Source: a virus. From it: a DNA stretch of 64,000 nt. Of this stretch, positions 13,534 through 61,854 are shown one piece after another (positions within the stretch are counted from its first letter, which is position 1; each line of letters opens with the position of its first letter). Position numbers and translations under genes: made by a program. Location of the stretch: positions 40,214 to 104,213 of the IMG/VR virus record IMGVR_UViG_3300031521_000027. One strand, written 5' to 3'. Under the pieces are notes generated by a model. It did no database searches. It saw only the letters and a program-made list of their open reading frames with translations, and was not told the DNA's origin.

Positions 13534-14986
13534 ACACTCCCAGATCGTCCTCTCGGCCATCTTGGCGGGCAGGCGCGATCTGCTGGAGAAGGCTGTCGCC
13601 CACCTGACGCCAGCCCACTTCCCGGAGAAGGTCCACGCCGACCTCTTCACCATGCTCATGCGCTTCTCGGACTACACCGGGGGCGCGGTCATGCCGCTGA
13701 AGTACCTCGACGACAACCTCCGTGGCCGCATGGAGCCGGGCAAGGCTCAGCTGTTCACCGAGACCTACGAGATGCTGTCGGAGACCACGACAGAAGATTC
13801 TGAGTTCGCGTGGTCCCTCCAGCAGCTGCGCGAGCTGGCTGCCGACAAGACCACAGGCGAAGCCCTGACTGAGGCCATGGAGATCCTGCGCCGAGGCAAG
13901 ACCATCGACAACCAGACCTATCAGGGCCACAACGATGCCCGCGCTCGCCTGCTGGAATCGTTTCAGGAAATCGACCGTGAGCTGGTTCGGCAGGACGCGC
14001 CGGAGGGGGACCTCGCAGACGAGGCCACCGAGATGAAGGCCGACTACGCCGAGCGGAAGAACGCGCGCCTCAAGGGTGTGTCCTCCGGCATCCGGTTCGG
14101 CATCGACGAGCTGGACCGCAAGATCGGTGGGCTCCAGCCGGGAGAGCTGGTGCTGCTCGCGGGCTACTCCAGCGACGGCAAGTCCTCCCTGTGCGTCCAG
14201 CTCGCGTGGAGCGCCGCCGTGGAGCAGGGACAGAACGTGGTCTTCCTGACCACCGAGACCCTGCGTCCCCAGATCCGCCGCAAGATCATCGCCCGCCACT
14301 CCAAGCTGCCGATCTTCGAGACACCCGAGGGCCTTAACACCCGGGATCTGAAGGCAGGCACCTTGACGGATGAGCAGGAACTCATCCTCCCCCGGGTGAT
14401 CGACGACCTCGCCAAGAACCCCGCCTACGGCAAGATCTACATCGCGCAGGTCCCTCGGGCGGCAGGCATCGCCAGCATCGAGCAGAGGCTGCTGCGGATC
14501 CAGCGGAAGTTCAACATCAAGCTGGTCATCGCCGACTACCTCGCGCTGCTGATCGCCGAGCGCAGACGCACCACGGCCCGGGAGGAGTACGCCGAGGTGC
14601 TGAAGAACGCCAAGCTCCTGTCGGTCGCCTTCGACAACGGGCGGGGAGTGGCCTTCGTGTCCCCGTGGCAGGTCTCCAGACAGCACAGGGAGGCCGCAGA
14701 GAACCTCGGGCAGTACACGTCCGCCGCGCTCTCCGAGACGGCTGAGGCGACGAACTCCTCCGACGTGATCGTCAGCCTGCTGGCCCCCACCGACAACACC
14801 GACCGGCACGCCGACGTCACCTTCCAGATCCTGAAGAACCGGGACGGCGAGACGGCCAACGGCATGATCGTCGAGGTCGACTACGCCACCTGTCACTTCC
14901 GCAGCAAGCGGATGCTGGGAGCCCTCGGTACGGGTGGTCTCGACTACTCCACCAACGGCACCATGGAAAGCCTGCTGAGCGCCTGA
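13517..14986 (+). CDS. DnaB-like replicative helicase
   Basis: About 489 residues. TTG 13517 follows GGAGAG by 4 nt; TTG 13505 is the alternative. The N-terminal ~170 residues are helical as in DnaB. The RecA-type core begins at SGIRFGIDELDRKIGGLQPGE, with Walker A GYSSDGKSSL near residue 215. LVIADYLALL corresponds to the IDYLQLM (Walker B) region, and FVSPWQVSRQHREA to the LSQLSR arginine region. It should unwind DNA at the fork as a hexamer. A GATTCTGAG copy encodes Asp-Ser-Glu near residue 94. Confidence 0.88.
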   Translation: MASASEHSQIVLSAILAGRRDLLEKAVAHLTPAHFPEKVHADLFTMLMRFSDYTGGAVMPLKYLDDNLRGRMEPGKAQLFTETYEMLSETTTEDSEFAWSLQQLRELAADKTTGEALTEAMEILRRGKTIDNQTYQGHNDARARLLESFQEIDRELVRQDAPEGDLADEATEMKADYAERKNARLKGVSSGIRFGIDELDRKIGGLQPGELVLLAGYSSDGKSSLCVQLAWSAAVEQGQNVVFLTTETLRPQIRRKIIARHSKLPIFETPEGLNTRDLKAGTLTDEQELILPRVIDDLAKNPAYGKIYIAQVPRAAGIASIEQRLLRIQRKFNIKLVIADYLALLIAERRRTTAREEYAEVLKNAKLLSVAFDNGRGVAFVSPWQVSRQHREAAENLGQYTSAALSETAEATNSSDVIVSLLAPTDNTDRHADVTFQILKNRDGETANGMIVEVDYATCHFRSKRMLGALGTGGLDYSTNGTMESLLSA

Positions 14987-14991
14987 GCTGA

Positions 14992-15006
14992 GGCGTATCA
15001 ATAGGT
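14992..15006 (+). promoter_or_regulatory. GGCGTACCAGT element, copy 2
   Basis: GGCGTATCAATAGGT directly abuts the ATG at 15007. It is the most diverged of the eight copies (T and A at positions 7 and 10). Confidence 0.5.
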
Positions 15007-15135
15007 ATGAGCGATTACGACGACGGCGAGGGAGGCCTTGAGGCCATCTTCTCGATTCTCTACGGCATGGTGTACCTCTTCATCGTGCTCCCACTCGCAT
15101 GGCTGGCCAAGAAGATGGGACTACTGGATGACTGA
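15007..15135 (+). CDS. Small single-span membrane protein (42 aa)
   Basis: MSDYDDGEGGLEAIFSILYG, then a hydrophobic span (MVYLFIVLPLAWLA) and a short KKMGLLDD tail. The ATG immediately follows a GGCGTACCAGT-type element, so it is predicted to be leaderless. The end overlaps the next start (ATGACTGA). An acidic N-terminus with a single helix fits a membrane-acting peptide. Function unknown. Confidence 0.7.
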   Translation: MSDYDDGEGGLEAIFSILYGMVYLFIVLPLAWLAKKMGLLDD

Positions 15136-15568
15136 CGTGGAGCGGGTCAACTGGCACGCGGACCTGCTCAACGTGGTCGACGAGCCGATGATCCTCTCCC
15201 TGATCCGCTACGACATGGACGCGGATCGTCAGCCTCACCCAGAGGGGGAGCTGGTCTCCTCCTACCTGCTGGGCACCCGCCAGCACGCGCCGATCATCGA
15301 CCTCGACTTCCCCCACCACTACGTGCCGAGCACCAACGGTGGGCACGGTCACCTCTACATCGACACCCCCATGTCCCAGCCGAAGATGATGCTCCTGCTG
15401 TGGGCCCTGCGGGTGACCGGTGTGATCGAGCAGGGCAACTTCTGGTGGTCACTGCGCCGGGGCGGGACCTTCGTCCGCCGACCCGAGGTGAAGAAGACCG
15501 AGGCTGAGAACACCCACTACACCTTCGGGATGTTCTTCAAGCTGAGGAACCATCGTGGAGAGAGCTGA
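15128..15568 (+). CDS. Hypothetical protein, paralogue of the 30030 gene
   Basis: 146 residues from the ATG that overlaps the previous stop. A longer in-frame reading from 15038 is a shadow of the small membrane gene. The core QHAPIIDLDFPHHYVPSTNG, GHGHLYIDTPM, then a helical stretch and GVIEQGNFWWSLRRG is shared with the protein at 30030-30551 in the same order. Conserved His and Asp residues could make a metal or ligand site. No named family recognised. Confidence 0.78.
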   Translation: MTDVERVNWHADLLNVVDEPMILSLIRYDMDADRQPHPEGELVSSYLLGTRQHAPIIDLDFPHHYVPSTNGGHGHLYIDTPMSQPKMMLLLWALRVTGVIEQGNFWWSLRRGGTFVRRPEVKKTEAENTHYTFGMFFKLRNHRGES

Positions 15569-18309: not shown

Positions 18310-18776
18310 TGAGACCTACACAGGAAATCCGGCGCTTCTTCGCCAAGACCCTTGATGAAGACCGGGGGTACATCACTCCCTGCGTGATCTGGACCGGCAG
18401 GAAGGTGAATGGGTACGGGGTGTTCGATCTCCAGCGCGATGACAACTCCGGCCCGCGTGCTGTGAAGGCCCACCGGTACTCCTACGGACTGCTTCACGGA
18501 GAGCAGCACATCCGCAGCGCCGTGGTGGGTCGCGAGGACGAGATTGACCACCTCTGCTTGCAGCGGGACTGCGTCAGGGAAGGTCATCTTGAACTCGTGA
18601 CCCTGAAGGTCAACCGCCAGCGGATGCACGACGTCCACCGGACAGAGATGTGCAAGAGAGGTCTCCACCTTCGCGCTGAGTTCGAGCGGATCAAGTCGAC
18701 CGGCGCTCCGTACTGCTTGGGGTGTCAGAGGATCAACGATGCTAAGCGTCGTCCTCGTAAGAAGAGGGAGGTCTGA
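18309..18776 (+). CDS. HNH homing endonuclease-like protein
   Basis: 155 residues from the ATG overlapping the preceding stop. VKAHRYSYGLLHGE, then EIDHLCLQRDCVREGHLELVTLKVNRQR carries the H, H and N positions of an HNH nuclease, with structural Cys residues including the C-terminal CLGCQ. The basic tail (KRRPRKKREV) fits DNA binding. It separates the delta' and delta clamp-loader-like genes, a typical site for a free-standing homing endonuclease. Confidence 0.85.
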   Translation: MRPTQEIRRFFAKTLDEDRGYITPCVIWTGRKVNGYGVFDLQRDDNSGPRAVKAHRYSYGLLHGEQHIRSAVVGREDEIDHLCLQRDCVREGHLELVTLKVNRQRMHDVHRTEMCKRGLHLRAEFERIKSTGAPYCLGCQRINDAKRRPRKKREV

Positions 18777-19773
18777 CATCGCCACCTTCAGTGGCTGGCT
18801 GACCGGGACCAAGAAGACCCCTGAGCCCCGGCAGATCACGTGGGTGTGCGGGCCGGAGGTCGTGCTTGTGGAGGAGGTCGTCCGGAGCGTCTCGGAGTTC
18901 CTCGCCCCCGAGCCGTGGAACCGGGTCAGCCTCGTGGCCGGAGATGATTCTGAGCGGGACATCTGGGCCGCGCTGGACCAGCACCCGATGGACACCTCAC
19001 CCCGGCTGGTGATCGTCCGGCACGTCGAGAAGATCCATGAGTGGGACCGCTTCGTGCAGTGGGTCAAGGACCGCTCGCGCAACCCCCGGACCTACGTGGT
19101 CATGGTCTCCTCCGAGGCGGCTGTTCCGAAGACCGAGCCCACCCCGGAGGAGCGCAGACACGGTACCCGCCCGGAGCCCCTCCCGCACATAGCCTGTATC
19201 GGATCCAAGGGCCACGTGGTGGAGTGCAAGCCGTTCACCTCGGCCACCGCGCTGCGCTCCGTGGAGTGGGTCCAGTCGAAGGCCCCCATGCGGGACGGCA
19301 TCGCCCGGCACCTGCTCACCCGCTCGAACTGGAACCTGCGGCTGGTCCGCGACATCTGCCTGAAGCTCGCCGTGTTCCCCGGTGAGATCACCATCTCAGT
19401 GGTCAACACCCTGCTGGCCGAGCAGCCCCGGGACAGCTTCACCGACGCCCTGCTGGCGCTGGACCGCAAGACCGCACTGCTCGCCGCCGAGTCGATCCCT
19501 CGCGAGGAGGTCGGGCGCATCATCGGCCTGCTGGACGCGAAGCTCGACAAGGCTGGGATGATCCATGACATGCAGGTGGACCACAAGTCACCCGGCGACA
19601 TGGCCAAGGCTCTGGGTCCGCAGGCGTTCCTGCTCACCGAGCTGATGAACGTCTCCAAGCACTACAACGCCAAGCGCAGGCTCGCGATCCGCAGGACGCT
19701 GGCCGTGGTCGACGAGGCCTACCGCTCCGGGCAGACAACGGGTCTGCTCGAAGTTGTCGTGGCGTTCTGGTGA
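18739..19773 (+). CDS. Clamp loader delta (HolA)-like subunit
   Basis: 344 residues. The ATG at 18739 lies within the HNH gene end. A better ribosome site (GGGAGG) lies just before codon 14 (ATC), so the original start may have been disturbed. ITWVCGPEVVLVEEVVRSV at the N-terminus and the helical C-terminal collar (KTALLAAESIPREEVGRIIGLLDAKLDK, LLTELMNVSKHYNAKRRL) match the HolA plan. There is no Walker A, as expected for delta, which opens the clamp. A GATTCTGAG copy is in frame at 18946. Confidence 0.75.
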   Translation: MLSVVLVRRGRSDIATFSGWLTGTKKTPEPRQITWVCGPEVVLVEEVVRSVSEFLAPEPWNRVSLVAGDDSERDIWAALDQHPMDTSPRLVIVRHVEKIHEWDRFVQWVKDRSRNPRTYVVMVSSEAAVPKTEPTPEERRHGTRPEPLPHIACIGSKGHVVECKPFTSATALRSVEWVQSKAPMRDGIARHLLTRSNWNLRLVRDICLKLAVFPGEITISVVNTLLAEQPRDSFTDALLALDRKTALLAAESIPREEVGRIIGLLDAKLDKAGMIHDMQVDHKSPGDMAKALGPQAFLLTELMNVSKHYNAKRRLAIRRTLAVVDEAYRSGQTTGLLEVVVAFW

Positions 19774-33632: not shown

Positions 33633-33943
33633 TGGCCGAGGGATTCGAGGCAGCTCAGCTGCACCACAGGGACACCCACTTGCCTCAGGGCTTCGTCTCG
33701 GCACAGCCCCCGATCAGGGGCCTGAGCCTGACCATGGAGATCCTCTTGGAAGACGGCAAGGTGGCCCTCCTCGCCGCTCCGAACGCCACCATGGTGTACC
33801 GGGACGCCCAGCTGTCGGACCTCGACCTGCGCCGGGACACGATCTGCGCCGCCCCCGTGTTCGGCTCCGGCGAGCAGTGGATCCGGCTCGATGGCCAGTA
33901 CACGATCACCGTCAACACCGAAGATGATTCTGAGGAGGCCTGA
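33632..33943 (+). CDS. Hypothetical protein (103 aa)
   Basis: ATG overlapping the NADAR stop. MAEGFEAAQLHHRDTHLPQG, then a beta-rich part with MEILLEDGKVALLAAPNAT. A GATTCTGAG copy sits at its C-terminus in frame as Asp-Ser-Glu (33926). No recognised family. It belongs to the MazG-NADAR operon. Confidence 0.75.
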   Translation: MAEGFEAAQLHHRDTHLPQGFVSAQPPIRGLSLTMEILLEDGKVALLAAPNATMVYRDAQLSDLDLRRDTICAAPVFGSGEQWIRLDGQYTITVNTEDDSEEA

Positions 33944-37950: not shown

Positions 37951-38259
37951 ATGATTCTGAGCATCCCGCCCGAGCAGTGCACCCACCACCCGGTCGACCG
38001 CGCCTTCGTGGCTCACGCCGGGGAGCACCCTCCGTTCGCGTGGTGCGTCGAGTGCCGGGAGTACGTGGAGATCGACGTCGACTACGCCCTGAAGTTCCAC
38101 CACGACCACGCATTGGAGGAGGTCTTCCGCCACAAGGTGGTCAGCAAGGCCGGAGCAGGGGCATGGGAGGCATGGCAGGCCGAGAACTGGGCCACCGTGC
38201 TCCAGCGCCTCGCCGACCGCCCACGGGGCAAGGCACCCAAGCTGTTGACACCGCACTGA
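37951..38259 (+). CDS. Hypothetical Cys/His protein (102 aa)
   Basis: The start codon is embedded in a regulatory motif: ATGATTCTGAGC (GATTCTGAG at 37953). IPPEQCTHHPVDRAFVAHAG with FAWCVECREYVEIDVDY gives a CTHH...CVEC zinc-type layout. The -35 box of the next promoter lies in its last codons. Confidence 0.74.
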   Translation: MILSIPPEQCTHHPVDRAFVAHAGEHPPFAWCVECREYVEIDVDYALKFHHDHALEEVFRHKVVSKAGAGAWEAWQAENWATVLQRLADRPRGKAPKLLTPH

Positions 38260-42451: not shown

Positions 42452-42681
42452 CCGCCCCACGGAAGCTCCGCGCCCGCTTCGGCATGGACCGCCTCCCCGA
42501 GCCCCGCACCCCACAGGGCAAGAGCAGGTTCGTCGCCTACTGCCGCCAGCTCGGGGTCAACCTCCAGCCGTACCAGCAGCGCTGGCTGGAGGCCTACGAC
42601 AAGGACTACCCACCCACCACCCGGATCGTCTTCAACACCCGCGCGCACACCGCCGAGATCAGCCGCCTCAACCGGACATGA
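42448..42681 (+). CDS. Small basic hypothetical protein (77 aa)
   Basis: GTG start overlapping the preceding stop. MTAPRKLRARFGMDRLPEPR, FVAYCRQLGVNLQPYQQRWL, ending NTRAHTAEISRLNRT. Basic and helical, could bind nucleic acid. Its stop codon is inside ATGATTCTGAGG (GATTCTGAG at 42680). Confidence 0.72.
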   Translation: MTAPRKLRARFGMDRLPEPRTPQGKSRFVAYCRQLGVNLQPYQQRWLEAYDKDYPPTTRIVFNTRAHTAEISRLNRT

Positions 42682-42686
42682 TTCTG

Positions 42687-42728
42687 AGGGGCCCCATCGT
42701 GTTTCTCGAAAATGCGATTCGGCCCCTC
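42687..42728 (+). terminator. Terminator-like hairpin enclosing a palindrome
   Basis: GAGGGGCC pairs with GGCCCCTC across a 26-nt loop that contains GTTTCTCGAAAA (42701-42712). No T-run. Confidence 0.5.
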
Positions 42729-42789: not shown

Positions 42790-43080
42790 ATGTCTTTCTC
42801 AAAACAACCGCAGCGCGTCTCCATCGCCATGGTCATGCAATCCCTCCGCGAGCAGGCAGAGACCGTCACCGACGCCCGTAACGCCCTCACTGACGCCATT
42901 GCGGACCGGGACGCCATGATGGTCGAGCTGAAGGCCGCAGGGGTCCCTGAACGCAACATCATGAAACTCACCGGACTCAGCAGGGACTCCGTCGCCCGGA
43001 TCACACAGGGAGCCCGTACCGCCGCCGCACTGGACGCAGAGGCACTCCTCGCCATCCCTGCACCCGGCAAGCTGCGCTAG
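42790..43080 (+). CDS. Small HTH protein, candidate regulator (96 aa)
   Basis: MSFSKQPQRVSIAMVMQSLR, a coiled segment, then a resolvase-like HTH (GVPERNIMKLTGLSRDSVAR). The start is close to a -10-like box, so it is probably leaderless. Three degenerate copies of the GTTTCnnGAAAC palindrome lie at or beside the gene, which makes it a candidate for the protein that binds this repeat family. That link is inference. Confidence 0.7.
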   Translation: MSFSKQPQRVSIAMVMQSLREQAETVTDARNALTDAIADRDAMMVELKAAGVPERNIMKLTGLSRDSVARITQGARTAAALDAEALLAIPAPGKLR

Positions 43081-43106: not shown

Positions 43107-44192
43107 ATGGCAGCAACCATCCACCGCCTCCGGGTCCGCAACTTCCAGAGCCTGCACGACATCGAGCTGGAGCTTCTCCCGTTCACCGTGATCGTCGGGC
43201 CCTCCTCCTCGGGCAAGTCGGCACTCACCCGGGCCCTGCGCACCCTCGTGTCCAACAGGCGGGGTACCGAGTGGATCACCCACGGGGAGCGGACGGCATC
43301 CATCACCGCAGAGACCGACGCAGGCACGGTCACACTCACCCGCAGCCGCTCCTCCGCATCGTCGGACAACGCGTACACCCTGACGCCCGCAGACAACCCG
43401 GAAGCCCAGCGGACCTACGCCAAGCTCGGTGGCGACACCCCGGAGGACGTTTCGAGATTCCTCGGCATCAACTCCGGCACCACGGCCACCCCGCCGATCA
43501 ACTTCGCAGGCCAGTTCGACAAGCCGTTCCTCCTCGCCGACTCCACCGCCGACGTCGCCCGCACACTGGGGGCCCTCACGAACGTCAACATCATCTTCGA
43601 GGGAGCCCGGGAGTCCAACAGGCAGAAGCTGGCCAACGCGGTCACCCTGCGCACCAGAGCAGCAGACCTTGAAGCGGTCAAGGCACGGGTCCCCGAGTTC
43701 CGAGCCCTGAAGGCACAGGACGTGGCCCTCACCGCAGCCGAGCAGATCATCGAGCACGCCCGCCAGCTGGAGCGCCAGATCGCCCGGCTCTCACAGGCAC
43801 TGGACATCGTCACCGTGATCGAGCCGTCCCTGCCACGCCTCCAGCGCCTCGCAGACATCGTGGTCCCTGACGAAACATCGATCCTCCGGGCCCAGAGCGC
43901 CCTCTCCAGCTTCCAGCAGGCTCTCACCCGGATACCGACCCTCGCCCGAGCCCAGCAGGCCGCACAGCAGGCGTACGACGTCATCGACACACAGGAGGCC
44001 AAGCTCCTCGCCGACTATGCCGAGTTCACCGGGGAGATCACCGACTCCCTGCACGGGTGGATCGGGGGCATGACCCTGAGGGGGGACACCCGGATCGAGT
44101 TCTCCGAGACCGGCATCGAGGTCGAGTGGATTCAGACCGACGTGGCCGTGAGTCTCTTCCTGAAGTATCTCGAAACGAAGGCCAGTTCGTGA
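43107..44192 (+). CDS. SbcC/RecF-like half ATPase
   Basis: 361 residues. IHRLRVRNFQSLHDIELELL and GPSSSGKSALTRALRTLVSN are the N-terminal strands and Walker A of SMC-type repair ATPases. FAGQFDKPFLLADS resembles the Q-loop region. A helical coiled-coil part follows. No LSGG signature or Walker B is visible, so the C-terminal ATPase lobe is missing or very diverged. An SbcD/Mre11-like nuclease at 57485 shares the same GGCGTACCAGT element, suggesting a functional pair. Confidence 0.75.
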   Translation: MAATIHRLRVRNFQSLHDIELELLPFTVIVGPSSSGKSALTRALRTLVSNRRGTEWITHGERTASITAETDAGTVTLTRSRSSASSDNAYTLTPADNPEAQRTYAKLGGDTPEDVSRFLGINSGTTATPPINFAGQFDKPFLLADSTADVARTLGALTNVNIIFEGARESNRQKLANAVTLRTRAADLEAVKARVPEFRALKAQDVALTAAEQIIEHARQLERQIARLSQALDIVTVIEPSLPRLQRLADIVVPDETSILRAQSALSSFQQALTRIPTLARAQQAAQQAYDVIDTQEAKLLADYAEFTGEITDSLHGWIGGMTLRGDTRIEFSETGIEVEWIQTDVAVSLFLKYLETKASS

Positions 44193-44470
44193 CCGGCTTC
44201 TCCCTCCCCGCGTGGACCGGTCGCTCCGCGCCCCCACCGGGAGAAGATTCTGAGCGGGCCCTCTCCCTCACCGACGCGTGGGCTGCACTGGTCCGCATCC
44301 GCAACAGGTCCATGACCCAGACGGAGCTGGCCGAACGTGCGGGGCTGCACCGCTCAGCCGTATCAAAGATGGAGGCCGTCGGTTATCTTCCGACCCTGCG
44401 CACCATGGCCACCTATGCCGACGCCCTCGACATCGAGCTGAACCTCACTTTACGAAAGAAGGCTTCATGA
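44189..44470 (+). CDS. XRE-family HTH protein (93 aa)
   Basis: GTGA overlap with the SbcC-like gene. MTQTELAERAGLHRSAVSKM followed by EAVGYLPTLRTMATYADALD is a clear Cro/C1-type HTH. The N-terminal ~30 residues are a linker with an in-frame GATTCTGAG (44246). It may be a transcriptional repressor or an antitoxin-like protein. Candidate reader of one of the dispersed motifs. Confidence 0.85.
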   Translation: MTGFSLPAWTGRSAPPPGEDSERALSLTDAWAALVRIRNRSMTQTELAERAGLHRSAVSKMEAVGYLPTLRTMATYADALDIELNLTLRKKAS

Positions 44471-45288
44471 TCACGCCCCGCAGGTTCCTCATCCGCTCCC
44501 GGGACAACCTCGCCCAGATCCTCGCCGAGGGAGTCGTGTGGTCCAACGGCGGGGTCAGCACCGTCCGCCACCCGTGCCGCTGGTTCAAGGACTCCCGTGG
44601 GCTCGCCCTCGCGCTGCCCGAGGAGCTGGGACTCCCGACCCCACAGAACCTCGCCCAGCTGGAGAACCTCGCCGCAGCCGTGTGGGGAGAGCTGGACTGG
44701 CTCGACAAGTCCGAGGAGGAGATCGCCGCAGCAGCTGCACAGGCGCAGGCCAAGATCGACGAGGCATGGCGGGATGCGCAGGTGGACATGCACAAGATCC
44801 TCTTCGCCGCCCGGAAGCTCGACTGGCGGGACCCGGTCGCCGTCGCACAGGAGCAGCGCACTTCCCGTGGCCTCGACGAGGTTTCAGGAAACGAGCCCGC
44901 CCCCGAGGAAGATTCTGAGCTGCCCTTCGTCGGCTACCGGGTGGCACAGGCCGCTCCCGGTGACTTCCTCATCTCCGGTGACTTCTCCGCGCAGCAGGCA
45001 GCGCAGGACGAGGAGGACATCGACACCCTCAAGAGCTGGTGGCCCCACCGGACCTTGACCGTCCACATCCCTGAGCCCAGCAGGCTTCTCTCGACGCTGC
45101 TGCTGGGCCATGACCCGTGGGCCGAGGTCATCGTCGGCAAGGACACCACCATCAACGGGATGCTCGGCGACCTCGTATTTCGTCCGTACGGGCCCAGCAG
45201 CTCCGAACCCGTACCAGTACCCGCAGAAGGTGCTGCTGAGCCCGTGGACCCCCCACAGGGCCCCGCTGAGCAGCCGATCCAGTCGTGA
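44467..45288 (+). CDS. Hypothetical protein (273 aa)
   Basis: ATG overlapping the previous stop. RRFLIRSRDNLAQILAEGVV, a helical Ala-rich stretch (EEEIAAAAAQAQAKIDEAWR), then a C-terminal beta part and a Pro-rich tail. GTTTCAGGAAAC (44881) and GATTCTGAG (44911) lie 30 bp apart inside the gene, in Val-Ser-Gly-Asn and Asp-Ser-Glu codons. No family recognised. Confidence 0.76.
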   Translation: MITPRRFLIRSRDNLAQILAEGVVWSNGGVSTVRHPCRWFKDSRGLALALPEELGLPTPQNLAQLENLAAAVWGELDWLDKSEEEIAAAAAQAQAKIDEAWRDAQVDMHKILFAARKLDWRDPVAVAQEQRTSRGLDEVSGNEPAPEEDSELPFVGYRVAQAAPGDFLISGDFSAQQAAQDEEDIDTLKSWWPHRTLTVHIPEPSRLLSTLLLGHDPWAEVIVGKDTTINGMLGDLVFRPYGPSSSEPVPVPAEGAAEPVDPPQGPAEQPIQS

Positions 45289-45638
45289 GGGTCGCGATCA
45301 CCGAGGCAGATCTTGTCTCCCTCGCTCCCGACAGCGTCATCCTGCTCACCTCGTGGGGTAGTTACTCGAAACGAACCGACGGCTTCTGGCAGCGCGCGGG
45401 TGGACTCCCGCTGAGTTCCCGGCACATGGCCTCGGGCAAGCCCCTGCTGGTCATCTTCGACGCGGGCCGGATGGAACAGACCATTCGGGTACTGGAGGCC
45501 GACGCCCTGTGCACCCTCCAGCTCTCGGGTGGGGAAGCCCTGCACGCACTGGCCGAGATCGACTTCGTGAACTGCTGGCGCAAGCATCATCCGAGGGTGG
45601 AAGATTCTGAGCGCCCCCCTGCGCAGCCGACCGGCTGA
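45285..45638 (+). CDS. Hypothetical protein (117 aa)
   Basis: GTG overlapping the preceding stop. RVAITEADLVSLAPDSVILL, GSYSKRTDGFWQRAGGLPLS, then ALAEIDFVNCWRKHHPRVED. Looks like a compact alpha/beta domain. GATTCTGAG in frame near the end (45603). Unknown. Confidence 0.74.
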   Translation: MRVAITEADLVSLAPDSVILLTSWGSYSKRTDGFWQRAGGLPLSSRHMASGKPLLVIFDAGRMEQTIRVLEADALCTLQLSGGEALHALAEIDFVNCWRKHHPRVEDSERPPAQPTG

Positions 45639-46743: not shown

Positions 46744-46831
46744 GTGAAGGAAGATTCTGAGCCTGCTGGCGCATCGAGGCGAAGACTGATAGCGTGAACG
46801 CTGTCAGTACGGCAACTGGACACAAAGCAAA

Positions 46832-47619: not shown

Positions 47620-47656
47620 AATCGAGATCACTCCCGGGCTCAGAATCTTGATACGC

Positions 47657-48896: not shown

Positions 48897-49047
48897 CCTC
48901 ATGCCCGGACTTGGAGCGTCGAGCCGAACATCCAAGTCGAGGTGGGGTCGAGTGGGACCGTGGGAAGATTCTGAGCGTCCGAGCGCAGCGACACCACCGC
49001 TGACTACGCCTTCGACAACAGCTGGTCGGGGCACTCAGAACAAGCAA
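48897..49047. other. Spacer between convergent genes
   Basis: No ORF with coding character. It holds a plus-orientation GATTCTGAG (48967-48975) and lies between two facing terminators. Confidence 0.5.
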
Positions 49048-50253: not shown

Positions 50254-50898
50254 ATGGACACCTTCATCCGCGTCGCCGTCCCCGAGGCTGTCACGCTCCG
50301 CACCAAGGAGCTGCTCAGTGGACTGGGCATCGAGGCCAAGTTCGTGGACGACCTTGCCGAGGTCACCGCCCGCGACATCCTCGCCACCTACGCCGGGTGT
50401 GCGGGGGTAGATGATTCTGAGCGGTTCGCTCCCGGCGACCGCTTCATCACCATCGGCACCGACCCGGGACGCAAGGGCATCGTCGTCAGGCTCGAACGCA
50501 ACCTCCGGGTCAATACCACGGTGTGTGTCGTGCTCGACGGTGAGGACAAGGTGATGAGCTTCGGAGCCAGCGTGATGCAGCTCATCGAAGACGCCCTGCC
50601 CGAGGACGAGGAGATCCTCGACGACATCCCCCCGCTCCGGCAGGAGAACGAGGAGCTGAACGAGGACATGGTCTACCGGGCCCTGCGCGCTACACCCAGC
50701 ACTGCCACAGCACAGTCCCAGCACGCAGCTGCGGGAGCCTTGTTCGCCATGCTGCGCTCCCGGCCCTACTCGGCACCACGGCTGAACGAGCGTCAGGTCT
50801 GCAACTTCGTGGAGGTCATGGTCGGCCTCCCCTGCATCACCGGGGCACAGGCAGCCGCCGTGCTCGCACTCGTTTACGGAAAGGAAGTCCAGTCATGA
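50254..50898 (+). CDS. Hypothetical protein (214 aa)
   Basis: ATG behind GAGAGGAACAACTA. MDTFIRVAVPEAVTLRTKEL, FAPGDRFITIGTDPGRKGIV, an acidic middle (EDALPEDEEILDDIPPLRQE), then a helical end. GATTCTGAG in frame at 50413 as Asp-Ser-Glu and GTTTACGGAAAG at 50872. Not recognised. Confidence 0.76.
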   Translation: MDTFIRVAVPEAVTLRTKELLSGLGIEAKFVDDLAEVTARDILATYAGCAGVDDSERFAPGDRFITIGTDPGRKGIVVRLERNLRVNTTVCVVLDGEDKVMSFGASVMQLIEDALPEDEEILDDIPPLRQENEELNEDMVYRALRATPSTATAQSQHAAAGALFAMLRSRPYSAPRLNERQVCNFVEVMVGLPCITGAQAAAVLALVYGKEVQS

Positions 50899-51790: not shown

Positions 51791-51831
51791 TGTGGGTGGG
51801 ATGAAGATTCTGAGCGGGCTCGCGCAGCGCC

Positions 51832-53201: not shown

Positions 53202-53214
53202 TCAAGATTCTGAG

Positions 53215-54327: not shown

Positions 54328-54374
54328 CTATGCCCGGGAGGGAGGGGGGAAGATTCTGAGCCTCCCCAGCGGGA

Positions 54375-55570: not shown

Positions 55571-55683
55571 TCGAGGCACTGGTCGTCGCCCCCACCGTCT
55601 CCCTGATCGGGATGATCGTGTGGGGCATCGTGTACGCCGTGCTCGACGCCATCGCCCCCCACCTACCCACAACAAGATTCTGA
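55567..55683 (+). CDS. Tiny membrane protein (38 aa)
   Basis: GTGA overlap. MIEALVVAPTVSLIGMIVWG, IVYAVLDAIAPHLPTTRF. One span. The stop codon lies in GATTCTGAA, a one-mismatch copy of the dispersed 9-mer (55676). Confidence 0.62.
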   Translation: MIEALVVAPTVSLIGMIVWGIVYAVLDAIAPHLPTTRF

Positions 55684-55697
55684 AAAGGAGCATCACC

Positions 55698-56021: not shown

Positions 56022-56024
56022 GGC

Positions 56025-56053
56025 TTGACTCTAGCTAGGTACAGTCCTATACT
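56025..56053 (+). promoter_or_regulatory. Sigma-A-like promoter (leaderless)
   Basis: TTGACT, 17 bp with TAGGTACAG, TATACT, AGAGAC, ATG 56060. No palindrome. Confidence 0.78.
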
Positions 56054-56059
56054 AGAGAC

Positions 56060-56203: not shown

Positions 56204-56205
56204 CC

Positions 56206-56589
56206 ATGACCACCATCACTCCCCTCACGGACGCCAAAGACCTCATCACCTACTCCAAGATCCGCTGCTACGGCGTGCTGGGCGGCACCTACGTCGCCCT
56301 CGTGAACAACATCAGCGTCGAGCGCGACAAGGTGACCATCTGGGTGCAGCTGGACGACGACAAGGGCACTTCGATGCCCACCATCGTGTGCGCTCCCGAC
56401 ACGGGCATCGAGGTTGTCGAGGCTCCCGATCTCACGCCCTACGGGATCGTGCAGGAGTTCATCCGCCTCGCCCGCATCCAGTGGAGTGACGACGTCGAAG
56501 GTGCAGCTGCTGAGGCTGTGCTGGACGGTCTGGAAGCCCGGCTCCCCCAGATCCTCCAGCGCCAGAACGAGCTGAAGGCGAACTCATGA
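56206..56589 (+). CDS. Hypothetical protein (127 aa), related to the 57082 gene
   Basis: MTTITPLTDAKDLITYSKIR, a beta body (VTIWVQLDDDKGTSMPTIVC), EVVEAPDLTPYGIVQEFIRL and a helical end. Block order matches the 57082 protein (IR-x-Y, TIW, EVIEKAP, LVREF), so they are probably paralogues. Confidence 0.75.
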   Translation: MTTITPLTDAKDLITYSKIRCYGVLGGTYVALVNNISVERDKVTIWVQLDDDKGTSMPTIVCAPDTGIEVVEAPDLTPYGIVQEFIRLARIQWSDDVEGAAAEAVLDGLEARLPQILQRQNELKANS

Positions 56590-56810
56590 GCCGCCTGTCG
56601 GGGGAGTGCATCGACTCCCCCAAGGACCCCTGCGAGGGCTCGGTGGAGTACCGCACTGCACTGAGCCCCTCGGGCAAGATGTTCCCCCGGTGTGACAAGC
56701 ACTGGGCAGCGCGCCTGAAGGTGCAGGAGGGCATCAACGCCCGCTACCCCGAGCGCCAGCCTGCTGACTTCGATCCGCTGTACGCAGGCGAGCAGTGGGA
56801 TGAGGACTGA
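56586..56810 (+). CDS. Small Cys/His protein (74 aa)
   Basis: ATGA overlap. SGECIDSPKDPCEGSVEYR, SPSGKMFPRCDKHWAARLKV. The C...C...C-x-x-H layout resembles a phrase (MFPRCDKHW) common in small actinophage proteins. Possibly zinc-binding. Unknown. Confidence 0.74.
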   Translation: MSRLSGECIDSPKDPCEGSVEYRTALSPSGKMFPRCDKHWAARLKVQEGINARYPERQPADFDPLYAGEQWDED

Positions 56811-56835
56811 ACATGATTCTGAGGGAGGCAACGCC

Positions 56836-57015
56836 GTGATCTACCTGTACTGCCCTGAGTGCGGCAAGAAGGGCGTGACGCTGCACATCCGCGCCGTCGA
56901 TGACTACTACGGCTGCCGCTACTGCAACTTCGAGTTCTACACCCATGGCACGGACAGGTTCGACCGGCAGGCAAGGGCAGCACTGGCTGTGCGCAACCCG
57001 GGCTTCAAGGTCTAG
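56836..57015 (+). CDS. Mini zinc-ribbon protein (59 aa)
   Basis: GTG behind GAGGGAGG; a longer frame starts inside the preceding gene. IYLYCPECGKKGVTLHIRAV, DDYYGCRYCNFEFYTHGTDR: two CxxC pairs form a zinc ribbon. GATTCTGAG (56815) precedes it, forming ATGATTCTGAGG just after the previous stop. Confidence 0.72.
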   Translation: MIYLYCPECGKKGVTLHIRAVDDYYGCRYCNFEFYTHGTDRFDRQARAALAVRNPGFKV

Positions 57016-57019
57016 GGTC

Positions 57020-57049
57020 TTGACACAAGGTAGGTACATGGCCTAAGCT
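57020..57049 (+). promoter_or_regulatory. Sigma-A-like promoter
   Basis: TTGACA, 18 bp, TAAGCT. TAGGTACAT occurs both in the spacer and at the start region, 20 bp apart. Confidence 0.78.
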
Positions 57050-57081
57050 AGGTACATACCCACCAAGGAAGGGCAATAGCC

Positions 57082-57426
57082 ATGAGCACCATCACCGCAG
57101 AGCTGGTCGAGAAGAACGCCAAGATCCGCATCTACCCCTTCAACGACAGGGGCAGCTCTGAAGGCGTCGTCTTCAGCAAGGACGACCTCTGCGAGACCAT
57201 CGTCATCTGGTGCACCACCCTCGGCAACCCGGACGGCGTCCGCATCGAGTGCGACCCGTCCACCACGTTCGAGGTCATCGAGAAGGCACCCACGCAGATG
57301 ACCATGCCCGAGCTGGTGCGCGAGTTCGCATCCATCCGGGTCCAGATCGCCCTTGATCAGCCCCACTCCCTGCGCCGCCTGTGGCTCATCGTTGCTGAGC
57401 TGAAGAGCCGGGGTGCCCTTGACTGA
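57082..57426 (+). CDS. Hypothetical protein (114 aa), related to the 56206 gene
   Basis: ATG behind GGAAGGGCAATAGCC. MSTITAELVEKNAKIRIYPF, CETIVIWCTTLGNPDGVRIE, FEVIEKAPTQMTMPELVREF, then a helix pair. Similar to the 56206 protein in block order. Unknown role. Confidence 0.75.
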   Translation: MSTITAELVEKNAKIRIYPFNDRGSSEGVVFSKDDLCETIVIWCTTLGNPDGVRIECDPSTTFEVIEKAPTQMTMPELVREFASIRVQIALDQPHSLRRLWLIVAELKSRGALD

Positions 57427-57439
57427 GAGCCCAACAAAG

Positions 57440-57469
57440 AGCGCCCCTCGTGCGTACGGGGGGCGCTTC
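57440..57469 (+). terminator. Intrinsic terminator before the SbcD-like gene
   Basis: AGCGCCCC pairs with GGGGCGCT, then TCGG. GGCGTACCAGT copy 8 begins right behind it. Confidence 0.65.
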
Positions 57470-57484
57470 GGCGTACCAGTAGGT
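57470..57484 (+). promoter_or_regulatory. GGCGTACCAGT element, copy 8
   Basis: GGCGTACCAGTAGGT directly abuts ATG 57485 of the SbcD-like gene. Identical to copy 5 (MazG-like), one base from copy 6 (SbcC-like). Confidence 0.7.
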
Positions 57485-58480
57485 ATGACCATGACCGAGC
57501 CCAAGATCATCTGTGTGGGCGACCTGCACGTGTCCGACAAGGCACCTGTGAGCGCCACCGAGTCCTACACCGACGACATCCTCGTGATGCTGCGTTGGAT
57601 CGCCGACTATGCCGCCGCTGAGAAGGCGGATGCGGTCGTGCTGGCAGGGGACGTGTTCCATCACAAGGCCCCAAGCCGCAACAGCCACGAGCTGGTGCTG
57701 AAGATGATCGCTGTCGTGAAGTACTTCGAGGACAAGCAGGTGCGCCTGCTGTGCGTGACCGGCAACCATGACGTGATGAACGGCGTGATGGACAGCGTGC
57801 ATGAGCGCCAGCCACTGGGCGTGCTGTACGAGGCGGGCCTTGAAGAGCTGGTCGGCTGGGATGAAGGGGGCCTGCCCTTGTTCGGTGTCCCATGGCGCGA
57901 GTCGTGGACCGAGCCCGGCGACCCCGCCCTCGCACTGAAGGGGCTGGAAGATTCTGAGGGCCTGCCCCTGAGCAACGGCGTTCTGGTCGTGACGCACGCC
58001 CCGATCTACCCACCCTACGAAGCGCAGAAGCAGATGTTCGAGCTGGTGCAGCTGGAGGGCGAGGACGGGTTGAGTGCAGCCATGGGCAATCAGGGCCACC
58101 TGTACTACGGGCACATCCATGAGGACCACGGCGTCTTCGAGGTCGAGGGCGTGCAGTACGCCAACATGGGTGCCCTGAGCAGGGGGAGCCTGCACGAGTA
58201 CAACCTGAACCGCCAGATCAAGGTCGCTGTGTGGACCATCGAGGGCGGGTTCACTGAGGTGGTCGTGCCCCACAAGCCTGCCTCTGAGGCGTTCCGTCTT
58301 GCCGAGGTCATGGAGGAACGGGGCGAGCGGCTCTCTCTGGAGAGCTTCCTTGCAGCAGTGGGCAATCAGACCTTGGATGTCAGCAGTACGGGCAGCGTGA
58401 TTGACCACATCCGGGGGCGCGCAGACGTGAGCCCGGCAGTCAAGAAGCGCGCCATCACGATTCTGGAGGACGTGTCATGA
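57485..58480 (+). CDS. SbcD/Mre11-like metallophosphoesterase
   Basis: 331 residues; ATG 57491 is the alternative start. IICVGDLHVSD, VVLAGDVFHHK, LLCVTGNHDV, VVTHAPIYPP and LYYGHIHEDHG are the five phosphoesterase motifs in order. Mre11/SbcD nucleases open DNA ends and hairpins together with an SbcC/Rad50 ATPase; the SbcC-like half protein at 43107 is the candidate partner. It might process replication intermediates or concatemers. GATTCTGAG is in frame at 57950. Confidence 0.9.
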   Translation: MTMTEPKIICVGDLHVSDKAPVSATESYTDDILVMLRWIADYAAAEKADAVVLAGDVFHHKAPSRNSHELVLKMIAVVKYFEDKQVRLLCVTGNHDVMNGVMDSVHERQPLGVLYEAGLEELVGWDEGGLPLFGVPWRESWTEPGDPALALKGLEDSEGLPLSNGVLVVTHAPIYPPYEAQKQMFELVQLEGEDGLSAAMGNQGHLYYGHIHEDHGVFEVEGVQYANMGALSRGSLHEYNLNRQIKVAVWTIEGGFTEVVVPHKPASEAFRLAEVMEERGERLSLESFLAAVGNQTLDVSSTGSVIDHIRGRADVSPAVKKRAITILEDVS

Positions 58481-58644
58481 AGGACCACATGAAGAAGGCT
58501 GAGGACGCGCTGGAGGCTGCTGCTGAGCCCGGGACGTACCGATCCGACGTGCTGGTTCTCCAGTACGCCTTGGCACAGGCAGAGGGCACCCTTGCCGTCG
58601 CGCACGAGCTGCGCCTGCTCAGGGAATCCATGGAGGGGCGCTGA
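58477..58644 (+). CDS. Small helical protein (55 aa)
   Basis: ATGA overlap with the SbcD-like gene. MKDHMKKAEDALEAAAEPGT, YRSDVLVLQYALAQAEGTLA, VAHELRLLRESMEGR. Two helices. Probably co-translated with its neighbour. Confidence 0.7.
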   Translation: MKDHMKKAEDALEAAAEPGTYRSDVLVLQYALAQAEGTLAVAHELRLLRESMEGR

Positions 58645-58871
58645 TGGGCAAGCACGACATGAGCCAGCTGCGCACTGAGACGGGATGCACCGCCTCTGTG
58701 TGGTACCAGCACCCCGAGATCGGGGAGCGTCCTGTGGGCGTCTACCTGCGCCTTGCCATGGACGAGAACCTGCCCAATGGGGTGCGCTCTGCTGAGCTGC
58801 GCCTGACCGAGATCGAGGCCATGGAGTTGGCCAAGAACCTGCTGGAAGCAACGAAGGGAAGCATGGAATGA
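58644..58871 (+). CDS. Hypothetical protein (75 aa)
   Basis: ATG at the previous stop. MGKHDMSQLRTETGCTASVW, VGVYLRLAMDENLPNGVRSA, ELRLTEIEAMELAKNLLEAT. Alpha/beta; the C-terminal helix resembles small phage regulatory proteins. Unknown. Confidence 0.73.
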   Translation: MGKHDMSQLRTETGCTASVWYQHPEIGERPVGVYLRLAMDENLPNGVRSAELRLTEIEAMELAKNLLEATKGSME

Positions 58872-59098
58872 GCAAGCTCTACAAGGTAGGCATCACCATC
58901 ACGGAGGTCGAGACCGAAGAGGTCAACAGGGACCGCTACGACAAGGTCACCACGTCGGGCAGGAACGCCACCACGGTGCTGCTGGAGGGCACCTATGCAC
59001 TGGACACCATCCAGAAGATGGCAGCCCCTCAGATCGTCACGAACTTCCTGCTGGCGCTCGCGGGCGATGGCACGGGCGACCTGCTGAGGGGGCTGTGA
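58868..59098 (+). CDS. Hypothetical protein (76 aa)
   Basis: ATGA overlap. MSKLYKVGITITEVETEEVN, NATTVLLEGTYALDTIQKMA, then LLALAGDGTGDLLRGL. No motif recognised. In the gene chain 57485-59977. Confidence 0.73.
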   Translation: MSKLYKVGITITEVETEEVNRDRYDKVTTSGRNATTVLLEGTYALDTIQKMAAPQIVTNFLLALAGDGTGDLLRGL

Positions 59099-59286
59099 TG
59101 GCACATCCCGGGATCAAGGTCTTGACCGACGAGATCGCTAAGACGACCAAGCTGCGCGACGATGCCACCACGCACGCCGAGCACGCAAGGGCCAGCGCAC
59201 GGGCATGGGAAGAGGCTGTCCCGCGCCACCAGAAGCACATCGACGAGCTGGCTGAGGCACTGATCGTGCTGAAGAAGGCGCTCTGA
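59098..59286 (+). CDS. Coiled-coil small protein (62 aa)
   Basis: ATG at the previous stop; GTG 59095 is in frame. MAHPGIKVLTDEIAKTTKLR, EHARASARAWEEAVPRHQKH, IDELAEALIVLKKAL. A single long helix is predicted. Confidence 0.71.
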   Translation: MAHPGIKVLTDEIAKTTKLRDDATTHAEHARASARAWEEAVPRHQKHIDELAEALIVLKKAL

Positions 59287-59609
59287 TGGGTGCCATGGGA
59301 GTCATGTACTACGAGGTCCAGTGCGACCACGTCAACCCTGAGGGGGTGCGCTGCGCGACCAAGACGTCCGATCTGGGCCATGACTTCAGCGCGTGGGCCG
59401 ACCATGGGCAGGCACTGGACGACTGGCTGAGCCACGATGGCAGCTACGACGAGAAGACGGGCGAGACGTTCTGCTACGACCACATCCCGAAGTGCGCTGG
59501 CTGCGGCATCCTGTTGGTCGACGAGGAGCATGAGGACGACTGCCCCACGTGGGTGAAGGACCCGTACAACGCGAAGGCGCTGCTGGACGGCAAGCCGGTG
59601 GACTCATGA
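59286..59609 (+). CDS. Hypothetical Cys/His protein (107 aa)
   Basis: ATG at the previous stop. VQCDHVNPEGVRCATKT, WLSHDGSYDEKTGETFCYDH, PKCAGCGILLVDEEHEDDCP. Two potential zinc sites. Such EVQCD...CATKT proteins are frequent in actinophages but uncharacterised. Confidence 0.75.
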   Translation: MGAMGVMYYEVQCDHVNPEGVRCATKTSDLGHDFSAWADHGQALDDWLSHDGSYDEKTGETFCYDHIPKCAGCGILLVDEEHEDDCPTWVKDPYNAKALLDGKPVDS

Positions 59610-59977
59610 GCGACGAGCTGCTGGGCTACACCGAGATGGACGGCGACATCGTCACCCATCTCGCGCCTGTGCGGGACGTGGATGGGCCGAAGAACCTGAG
59701 GGTCGTGGCGCTGTGCCACAACATCCTGCCGAGGAGCCGCTACCAGCTGGGTCGACTTGAGGTCGACTGGAAGCAGGCTGAGGCCACCTACAAGAGCGCC
59801 ATCGAGGCGCGCACCCACTGGCTGCACCAGAAGGGGCTGTGCCGGAAGTGCTGGGTACGGATCGACGCCTTGGCACGCCGGGAGCAGAAGGACGCAGGGC
59901 CGAAGCATGACCTGTCCGTGGTCGAGCTGTTCGGGGAGCCGCACCGCAAGGTGACCTTCGAGGTGAAGGACGCTTGA
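59606..59977 (+). CDS. Hypothetical protein (123 aa)
   Basis: ATGA overlap. LRVVALCHNILPRSRYQLGR, ATYKSAIEARTHWLHQKGLC, RKCWVRIDALARREQ. CRKCW with a basic helix suggests nucleic-acid contact. Its end overlaps the -35 of the next promoter. Confidence 0.74.
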   Translation: MSDELLGYTEMDGDIVTHLAPVRDVDGPKNLRVVALCHNILPRSRYQLGRLEVDWKQAEATYKSAIEARTHWLHQKGLCRKCWVRIDALARREQKDAGPKHDLSVVELFGEPHRKVTFEVKDA

Positions 59978-60003
59978 CGCTAGGTAGGTACATGGCCTAT
60001 CCT
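59974..60003 (+). promoter_or_regulatory. Sigma-A-like promoter (leaderless mini-ORF)
   Basis: TTGACG, 18 bp with TAGGTACAT, TATCCT, AGAGAC, then ATGATTCTGAGGAGCAACTGA at 60010, a 6-codon ORF whose GAGGAG is also the ribosome site for ATG 60030. Confidence 0.72.
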
Positions 60004-60029
60004 AGAGACATGATTCTGAGGAGCAACTG

Positions 60030-60859: not shown

Positions 60860-61008
60860 TGGGTACCCCGAGCACGGGCGTCTGCAAGCACTGCGGAGGC
60901 CAGATCTACTACGACCTGAAGGCCACCTACATCGGTGGGCCGAAGCTGCTGCGCCCAGAGATGGCCGGGATGGACGCGTCCTCCAAGCACCTCGGGCCTG
61001 CGGAATGA
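60859..61008 (+). CDS. Small zinc-type protein (49 aa)
   Basis: MGTPSTGVCKHCGGQIYYDL, KATYIGGPKLLRPEMAGMDA. One CxxC pair; a His near the end could complete a site. Overlaps the next start (ATGA). Confidence 0.66.
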   Translation: MGTPSTGVCKHCGGQIYYDLKATYIGGPKLLRPEMAGMDASSKHLGPAE

Positions 61009-61178
61009 GGGCTGCCCACCTGCGGCTGGTGGAGGAGAACCAGATCCCAGCCTCCATCGCCGATCTGGCCGAGGTCGTGCAGCGCGCCGTGGAGGTACGC
61101 ACCGACTGGGAGGGCCTCCAGCTGACCGTGATGCGGGACGGCTCCATCACCTACGACATTCAGGAGAAGAAGGAATGA
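61005..61178 (+). CDS. Small hypothetical protein (57 aa)
   Basis: MRAAHLRLVEENQIPASIAD, LAEVVQRAVEVRTDWEGLQL, TVMRDGSITYDIQEKKE. Helix-helix-strand layout. ATGA overlaps at both ends. Confidence 0.66.
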   Translation: MRAAHLRLVEENQIPASIADLAEVVQRAVEVRTDWEGLQLTVMRDGSITYDIQEKKE

Positions 61179-61564
61179 ACGACGAGGAGTACGCCGAGCT
61201 GGCCGATGAGGTGGGCCGCGAGATCGTGGCCGCACTGGAAGCCGCAGGCGAGTACCGGATGCTGTCCTTGCTGGGCACTGCGCCGGGCACGTTCCGCACG
61301 GTGGCCGACGCTGCGATCCGGACCACGCTGGCATGGCGGGACGCTCAGGAGCCGGGCATCTGGGACACGATTGGGCCCAACCTTGCCCGCATCGCCGACG
61401 CACTGGAGAGCCCGATTGCACCCGTTCAGTCAGGTCGGTGTGGCGCGTCGATGGACGAGGCCATCGGCTTCCGGACGGGTCCGCACAGGGAGAACCTCTG
61501 CTGCGTCCTGCGGGCAGGCCACCGTGGCTGGCACCTTGAGGGCGAAACCGAGTGGAGCAACTGA
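61175..61564 (+). CDS. Hypothetical protein with Cys/His C-terminus (129 aa)
   Basis: A helical N-terminal ~85 residues (VGREIVAALEAAGEYRMLSL, GIWDTIGPNLARIADALES) is followed by RCGASMDEAIGF, CCVLRAGHRGWHLEGETEW, the same C...C-x4-GH-x-G-x-H...W module as the 49-aa protein at 32480. This suggests a reusable zinc module. Function unknown. Confidence 0.74.
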   Translation: MNDEEYAELADEVGREIVAALEAAGEYRMLSLLGTAPGTFRTVADAAIRTTLAWRDAQEPGIWDTIGPNLARIADALESPIAPVQSGRCGASMDEAIGFRTGPHRENLCCVLRAGHRGWHLEGETEWSN

Positions 61565-61854
61565 TGGCTGTGGAGAAGCACGAGTACGTCCCGAAGCCGC
61601 GCTGGACCGCAAGCCCCTGCCAGTACAGGCTGCCCCACGGATACGCCTGCATGATGCCCAGCGAGCACGCGATCCACCAGACCTTCGAGCAGATGGTGGC
61701 CGAGTTCGAGGCGGAGTTGGCCAAGCGGGACCGGCTGCTCATGCACGCGGCGTGGGATCTGGGCTGCGACTTCGCGGTGCGTCACCCGGACATGAACGCC
61801 GAGTACTTCCGGTCGGCCAACCCCTACAACGATGTTTCTGAGGAGACCCCGTGA
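61564..61854 (+). CDS. Hypothetical protein (96 aa)
   Basis: ATG at the previous stop. SPCQYRLPHGYACMMPSEHA, FEQMVAEFEAELAKRDRLLM, ending NDVSEETP. Partial C...C...H...H module at the N-terminus, then a helix. A variant motif GTTTCTGAG lies at 61834. Confidence 0.72.
   Translation: MAVEKHEYVPKPRWTASPCQYRLPHGYACMMPSEHAIHQTFEQMVAEFEAELAKRDRLLMHAAWDLGCDFAVRHPDMNAEYFRSANPYNDVSEETP

Follow-up and report, generated by a model that had tools for sequence, protein, structure and literature searches.

An oriented, evenly spaced word in the early genes of a distant relative of phage Magritte and its possible role as a stoperator-like site

What a nine-base word repeated in a single orientation, in genes and non-coding DNA alike, might do for a phage is the question raised by the IMG/VR virus record IMGVR_UViG_3300031521_000027 (104,213 b, hereafter G000), of which positions 40,214 to 104,213 were analysed as one stretch of 64,000 nucleotides (the window, whose coordinates are used below unless otherwise indicated). 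Judged by its DNA polymerase (48% identity) and major capsid protein (76% identity), this phage is distantly related to Microbacterium phage Magritte. The favoured explanation for the word, GATTCTGAG, to which a probability of about 0.4 is given, is that of an orientation-dependent site for a trans-acting factor that would act on elongating RNA polymerase, as a stoperator-like roadblock or terminator.

Copies of the word and selection on its nucleotides

The window holds 18 exact copies of GATTCTGAG, 17 on the plus strand and one on the minus strand (47639), against 0.54 expected from dinucleotide shuffles, none of 100 of which reached 18, so that a chance origin of the set is ruled out. Over the whole record the count is 20 (19 plus, one minus), with zero for a reversed-pattern control, and the word is the top over-represented 9-mer of the phage (20 versus 0.34, by a score of our own). 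It is asymmetric and non-palindromic, its strands standing at 19:1, and its flanks are biased as well, with A at position -2 and A or T at position -1 in 19 of the 20 copies each, G or C at -3 in all of them and C or G at +9 in 19. The repeated unit, A[A/T]GATTCTGAG, spans some 11 bases, more than the 9-mer, and is found 18 times on the plus strand and once on the minus strand. These counts bear out the initial annotation of the window, which had listed 18 copies, expected well under one per strand and placed all of them on the plus strand except 47639, within a minus-strand block. Its range, extended to 61842, was too wide, since the sequence at 61834 is GTTTCTGAG and the last exact copy lies at 60012; likewise, a start codon (37953) and a stop codon (42680) are indeed covered by the word, while the further stop codon claimed for it is overlapped only by the near-match GATTCTGAA (55676..55684, plus strand), which stays outside the exact count.

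According to the codon-score gene calls made for this analysis (166 genes), 92.5% of G000 is coding. Nine of the 20 copies are wholly non-coding, ten are found within called genes, and the remaining one reaches two bases into a stop codon; nine in 20, set against 7.5% of non-coding DNA, corresponds to p about 6e-6. The same caller was applied to every record but Magritte, and its starts may be wrong, the copy at 44246 possibly preceding the true start of gene 44189-44470. For codon counts Magritte was re-called with it too, and some minus-strand calls in the relative G8, described below, look spurious.

Synonymous shuffles of the 166 called genes (n=300) give a mean of 0.12 sense copies and a maximum of 2, compared with ten observed; the enrichment therefore survives a count that preserves codon use, and codon usage as its source is ruled out by these shuffles together with the non-coding copies. 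All nine copies fully inside genes lie in frame 0 and read Asp-Ser-Glu, the tenth in-gene copy (37953) overlapping a start codon. As previously claimed, this tripeptide is forced with codons otherwise avoided by the phage, GAT representing 14% of Asp and TCT 4.7% of Ser codons. In the called proteome Asp-Ser-Glu occurs 10 times versus 7.6 expected, and nine of the ten are coded GAT TCT GAG, a coding predicted at 0.6% from codon use, because of which selection is seen to act on the nucleotides and not on the encoded peptide. A coding artefact, in which a favoured Asp-Ser-Glu peptide brings the word along, would agree with the nine in-frame copies, but nine others are non-coding and the tripeptide is barely enriched whereas its particular codons are strongly so; this explanation retains practically no credibility, a peptide signal being refuted by codon bias, synonymous shuffles and the non-coding copies.

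The comparison covered 15 genomes, namely G000, Magritte, G005 and 12 of 16 large relatives (all except G020, G021, G027 and G028), with G018 and G026 covered to base 140,000 only. No comparable excess appears in the 14 other genomes, where any one kind of GAT TCN GAG coding accounts for at most 3/8 of the Asp-Ser-Glu tripeptides, the nearest cases being Magritte (GAT TCG GAG, 3/8) and the low-GC G23 (GAT TCT GAG, 3/8). At the positions of the copies in the DnaB, glycosyltransferase and Mre11-like proteins, Asp-Ser-Glu is found in 0/13, 0/11 and 0/14 other aligned genomes, respectively (a sister phage being aligned apart), and therefore this lineage changed the protein there. These in-frame copies, with proteins altered to hold a nucleotide signal, represent a clean case of overlapping selection. 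The DnaB-like copy (13796..13804, plus, in the helicase gene 13517-14986, frame 0) reads E-D-S-E, while the one in the Mre11/SbcD-like gene 57485-58480 (57950..57958, plus, frame 0) occupies a variable stretch. A different case is the copy at 18946..18954 (plus, frame 0) in the ATPase-like gene 18739-19773, whose three codons GAT TCT GAG also occur in G5 (62% amino-acid identity) and G14 (47%), and not in 11 other aligned genomes; its context is GGAGAAGATTCTGAGCG in G5 and G14 versus GGAGATGATTCTGAGCG in this phage, and from this alignment the site is apparently the oldest of the set.

Orientation and spacing across early transcription units

All 20 copies are sense to their local genes. The initial annotation had proposed that orientation follows transcription, with which the 20 copies agree, although only one of them tests it against genome polarity. 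This sole minus copy (47639..47647) is non-coding and lies in the minus-strand block, past a GC-rich hairpin (by fold) and before a promoter-like sequence at 47604(-); by our estimate, about 1.8 of 17.3 kb of the early region is transcribed from the minus strand. Fourteen of the 20 copies fall within 17.35 kb of small early genes, and the gaps between the 14 exact copies from 42680 to 60012 measure 665-1566 b except for two of 2463 and 2062 b, in keeping with the steps of mostly 0.7-1.6 kb noticed at first. Their coefficient of variation is 0.36, an evenness reached in 0.02% of random placements (p 0.0002) and in 0.03% of random choices of gene ends (p 0.0003).

Promoter-like sequences of the TTGAC-N17/18-TAAGAT type, followed by AGAGACAT, are frequent in the early region. 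By a hand count of the promoter-bounded units at 47.6-61 kb, eight of 13 hold at least one exact sense copy of the word, seven of them a single one and the eighth two. As for the promoters themselves, 17 of the 19 such places in the record lie at 35072-59974 of the window; this repeated early promoter often consists of a palindrome TTTCNNGAAAC immediately 5' to TTGACA, a 17-18 b spacer, a TAAGAT-like -10 and AGAGACATG; a leaderless ATG is present at times, and the palindrome part TCTGGAAA/TTTCCAGA is over-represented inside genes too (10 versus 0.42).

The position of the word within units varies: the copies at 42680, 53206 and record coordinate 25900 of G000 separate a stop codon from a hairpin, that at 47639 separates a hairpin from a promoter, and that at 60012 belongs to a leader. 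Thus, the copy at 42680..42688 (plus, as are all those that follow) covers the stop codon of gene 42433-42681 and stands at the base of a GGGGCC/GGCCCC hairpin, the helix-turn-helix (HTH) gene 42790 lying downstream; that at 53206..53214, non-coding, starts 5 b past the stop of 51972-53201, with a terminator-like hairpin directly next and then a promoter-like sequence at 53259; and that at G000 25900 stands 174 b upstream of the capsid gene. The copy at 60012..60020 sits in a 5' leader just past the promoter-like TTGACG..TATCCT at 59974. Other non-coding copies are those at 46753..46761, past the last gene of a plus-strand unit, 48967..48975, 51806..51814, 55 b past a stop codon, 54352..54360, and 56815..56823, which has a stop codon 5 b before it and the next start 21 b after it. 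The copy at 37953..37961 lies over the start codon at 37951, the preceding stop being 6 b before. In frame 0 within genes are those at 33926..33934 (3' end of 33632-33943, next start 17 b on), 44911..44919 (within 44467-45288), 45603..45611 (3' end of 45285-45638) and 50413..50421 (within 50254-50898), as well as 44246..44254, 54 b past the exonuclease/SMC-like gene 43107-44192 and in the 5' part of the HTH_3 gene 44189-44470.

With all copies sense, most of them inside predicted transcripts and many shortly past stop codons, the word might alternatively be read in early mRNAs by a phage or host endoribonuclease or RNA-binding protein that controls their decay or processing, T4 RegB being the model for such an endoribonuclease. 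Several copies, however, lie where transcripts should be scarce, between a terminator-like hairpin (by eye or fold) and the promoter that follows it (47639 in this phage; 40014 and 42280 in G8; 91405, 96206 and 97238 in Magritte), and the sites lack common structure or accessibility, none having been seen upon folding them. Such an RNA-level signal is considered rather unlikely, although it ranks next after the favoured explanation. An RNA hairpin element in particular was discarded, mean pairing at the motif being 0.59 versus 0.61 at random places.

A polar DNA-processing site, such as a Chi-like recombination stop or a replication-fork or packaging polarity signal, would be oriented by genome polarity rather than by transcription. 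It would fit the strand bias (19 of 20 copies), the presence of some copies outside the early region and the UvsX-like, SbcD-like and exonuclease/SbcC-like proteins encoded by the phage; it is at odds with the concentration of copies among early genes, the non-coding excess and the location of the minus copy in a minus-transcribed block. In the family of Aurantimicrobium (Microbacteriaceae), which may or may not include the host of the phage, none of 60 genomes contains more than 6 copies of AWGATTCKGAG, a count that also dismisses a family-wide bacterial motif. A DNA-processing role is considered less probable than one in RNA.

The word in related phages

Magritte, a 133-kb singleton with circular permutation and turbid plaques (Magritte paper), has no ATTCTGAG and carries instead the form GATTCGGAG, 14 times on the plus strand and three on the minus strand. 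The strong form A[A/T]GATTCGGAG occurs nine times on plus and never on minus, all at 84.5-98.9 kb and evenly spaced (p 0.001). Eight of these nine start 5-79 b past an annotated stop and the ninth 20 b before a gene end, according to a hand-typed list of stops; by the deposited genes, 84547 and 86806 fall inside genes 131 and 139. The metagenomic relative G8 (G008, 135 kb) has GATTCGGAG five times on plus and once on minus, with five plus and no minus copies of the strong form within 9.4 kb, three of the five being non-coding by our gene calls. Twelve further relatives contain A[A/T]GATTCNGAG 0-3 times each.

Most early genes of this phage are without match in Magritte or G8, which share more with each other, and therefore the word is common to the three phages while its surroundings mostly are not. 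In agreement with the early expectation that relatives would keep the word at non-homologous places, Magritte and G8 mostly do so with a one-letter change; one site, that in the ATPase gene, does go with a conserved protein. Judging from these sequences, the word drifts as a set between relatives, and a one-letter difference that affects the whole set while sense, spacing and clustering are kept is the pattern to be expected from a trans-acting, sequence-specific factor.

An exonuclease/SMC-like gene is followed by a site after 54 b in this phage and after 38 and 45 b in Magritte and G8, respectively, and the next genes differ. The HTH-exonuclease pair between direct copies, here and in Magritte, with differing neighbours, would suit a boundary motif of exchangeable gene cassettes, in which short direct repeats aid recombination between early modules, as would the loss of genes between 17-bp repeats in Cluster O phages, described in the excerpted text of the report on them (PMC4351075). 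On the other side stand the nine in-frame copies inside genes, two of them in the conserved helicase and ATPase genes, a word short for homologous exchange and a spacing more even than that of random gene ends, all of which make a cassette boundary very improbable.

A closer comparison is offered by a sister phage (contigs G002, G004 and G006; 84.9% identity over 43.8 kb), which keeps the 9-mer at the three of three cleanly aligned exact sites, including the DnaB copy 13796, and shows GATTCTGAA at 37953 in a poor alignment. Default 9-mer conservation being 38% in coding and 34% in non-coding DNA, the chance of this result is about 0.02-0.05, and sister-phage conservation is only suggestive. 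A search for the right arm of the sister phage among 23 relatives gave a best identity of 58% and no match as sister.

Words of the AGAAGATT type also exceed synonymous shuffles in some relatives, with AGAAGATTC present 15 times on plus and 25 on minus in G17 and 12 and 8 times in G5, and AGAAGATTT 10 and 2 times in G5, three copies being non-coding. They are treated as another motif because the 3' half of GATTCTGAG is lacking, though by the shared core GAAGATTC they could be related, the G5 set then being a third form. GAAnnTTC-type words, AGAAGATTC with its 40 copies in G17 among them, are far above synonymous shuffles in G005, G017, G014 and G023, AAATTTCT reaching 41 versus 6.9 in G23. A 14-mer scan of viral contigs yielded one match per stretch among 80 of at least 119 stretches, a chance-like outcome, and a scan for relatives with the Mre11-like protein alone found none.

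A possible stoperator-like function, comparable systems and candidate factors

Directly observed are the selection on nucleotides, the sense orientation, the clustering, the even spacing, the non-coding excess with many copies near stops, and the one-letter difference between sets; an action on transcription is favoured because of the sense orientation, the approximately one copy per early unit and the places after stops. In the favoured explanation, the factor recognising A[A/T]GATTCTGAG in one orientation would act in trans and most probably be a DNA-binding protein of the phage, and once bound it would meet RNA polymerase during elongation, as a roadblock or terminator. With about one site for each early transcription unit, this would cap or insulate early transcription, preventing polymerase from running on into the promoter of the following unit and allowing the early genes to be turned down. 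That a protein binds the DNA, that it meets the elongating polymerase and that its effect is negative is what we infer. If true, this would be an elongation control through 11 bases, about one per early unit, written even into conserved replication proteins.

Several points weigh against this explanation. Transcription is barely separated from fixed genome polarity, with a single minus copy; five of the 13 hand-counted promoter-bounded units have no exact copy, and half of the copies lie outside intergenic space. The AGAAGATT-type words of G5 and G17 may represent a related system or a separate one. No integrase was recognised in this phage, and the Magritte paper reports neither an immunity repressor nor an integrase. 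The small protein encoded at 42790 has homologues in G5, G14 and G17, all of them without the word, whereas for the HTH_3 protein 44189-44470 phmmer finds no homologue in Magritte or G8. Finally, only one gene was found to be private to the three carriers (this phage, Magritte and G8), and even this one is partly matched in G5; it encodes a histone-deacetylase-like enzyme (51972-53201, of the histone-deacetylase family).

The known systems compared here are taken from excerpted text of the cited papers. Stoperators of Cluster A phages and their kin are asymmetric sites of 13-14 bp that number 20-30 per genome in Clusters A and CA. They follow the direction of transcription, lose their activity upon reversal and are located at gene ends, and their consensus drifts between relatives together with the repressor (PMC6550527, PMC9283540, PMC5559632, PMC13313380, PMC10276819). 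They are carried by L5 and Bxb1, Gordonia phages of A15, Rhodococcus phages of Cluster CA and the Streptomyces R4 group, and those of known function are part of temperate-phage immunity. The present set resembles them in its approximately 20 short asymmetric sites, sense-oriented, in part at gene ends and with a drifting consensus. It differs in its unrelated lineage, capsid and polymerase grouping with Magritte, in having about half of its copies in genes, in its even spacing and in that no integrase was found. The word is also unlike the quoted consensuses, which end in TGTCAAG, in agreement with the initial annotation, which took the sequences to be unrelated. Whereas stoperators occupy short intergenic spaces and gene ends, nine of the 20 copies here are non-coding, one lies over a start, one over a stop and nine inside genes. 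The resemblance to stoperators first proposed thus holds for asymmetry, copy number, sense, coding and non-coding places, start and stop cover, and drift; of the HTH proteins named then, those at 42790 and 44189 do not track the word among relatives.

Oriented intergenic repeats are a kind already described in lytic T1-like phages, and this set differs from them in detail. The repeats of T1, Stevie and TLS are oriented with transcription and likened by their authors to stoperators, their role being reported as unknown; they are asymmetric in Stevie and occur 20 times in T1 (PMC4319613, PMC11447400). They are longer, predominantly intergenic and from enterobacterial phages, whereas here nine of 20 copies are wholly non-coding, half lie in genes, where codons and residues are altered, and sets differ by one letter between relatives. 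Cluster O phages (Corndog), from which stable lysogens were not recovered according to the same excerpts, carry more than 30 copies of a 17-bp repeat, denser at the right end and about a third of them in genes (PMC4351075); these repeats are palindromic and have no meaningful orientation, unlike the non-palindromic word described here, oriented 19:1. Start-associated sequences (SAS) are found in Cluster K and in Microbacterium Cluster EF, with repeated motifs in Clusters EC, EG and EI, that of EC being asymmetric and in one orientation like this word (PMC3203893, PMC7302621). SAS, EC and EG motifs precede start codons, whereas this word lies mostly at gene ends or inside genes: the copies at 33926, 56815 and 60012 stand 17-21 b before a called start and that at 37953 over one, the other 16 doing neither. 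In the excerpted text on Microbacterium phages, the published motifs are associated with starts, palindromic or present in small numbers (PMC7302621). Among the titles listed by literature searches for GATTCTGAG or GATTCGGAG, no description of either was seen.

A three-capsid-protein alignment gathers 141 relatives in viral contigs (the best 80 of 141 being listed), whereas a pattern-based capsid scan of bacterial genomes gave 198 pattern matches, none of them confirmed, and no prophage was found. A virulent life style is therefore likely, since no relative is confirmed in bacterial genomes and no repressor or integrase is reported for Magritte. The protein 39911-40693 is not regarded as an integrase, as its integrase-family match (E 3e-4) is not accompanied by a Pfam match and it reads by eye as acidic, with paired cysteines. 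It may tentatively be envisaged, with considerable doubt, that the set is a lysogeny-independent stoperator system in a probably virulent family, the specificity of whose factor shifted by one base and the entire site set with it. With this phage, oriented repeats are known from a third lineage, unrelated to the other two; evenly spaced, under strong nucleotide selection and present in two letter forms in related phages, the set makes the question of their role testable, as Magritte grows on a laboratory host.

Two genes provide weak candidates for the factor. The first (42790..43080, plus) encodes a small protein in which a long helix is combined with an HTH-like part, and is flanked by the sites 42680 and 44246; it has homologues in Magritte, likewise flanked by sites, and in G8, G5, G14 and G17. 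Its predicted structure, with a predicted local distance difference test score (pLDDT) of 78.9 from 4 sequences, has its best PDB match at Z 5.8 over 58 residues, a value shared by many unrelated HTH proteins, and the model only suggests an HTH-like protein, nothing finer. The second (44189..44470, plus) is a Cro/CI-type HTH_3 protein of 93 aa with a site in its 5' part, and 'transcriptional repressor' families are among its matches when 79 early proteins are scanned against Pfam and PHROGs (best 25 of 36 and 39 families).

Among other proteins of the early region are those with a ProQ-C-like domain (36416-36793) and a NADAR domain (33144-33632), and an RlaP-type RNA-repair nucleotidyltransferase (62150-62896). 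Other oriented motifs, often near gene starts, are also present, as GGCGTACCAGT at 13053-57470 of the window, GGCGTATCAC and CGATATCCCTG in Magritte and CGATATCACA and GTTAGCGCG in G005; differing between relatives, they may be middle or late promoters.

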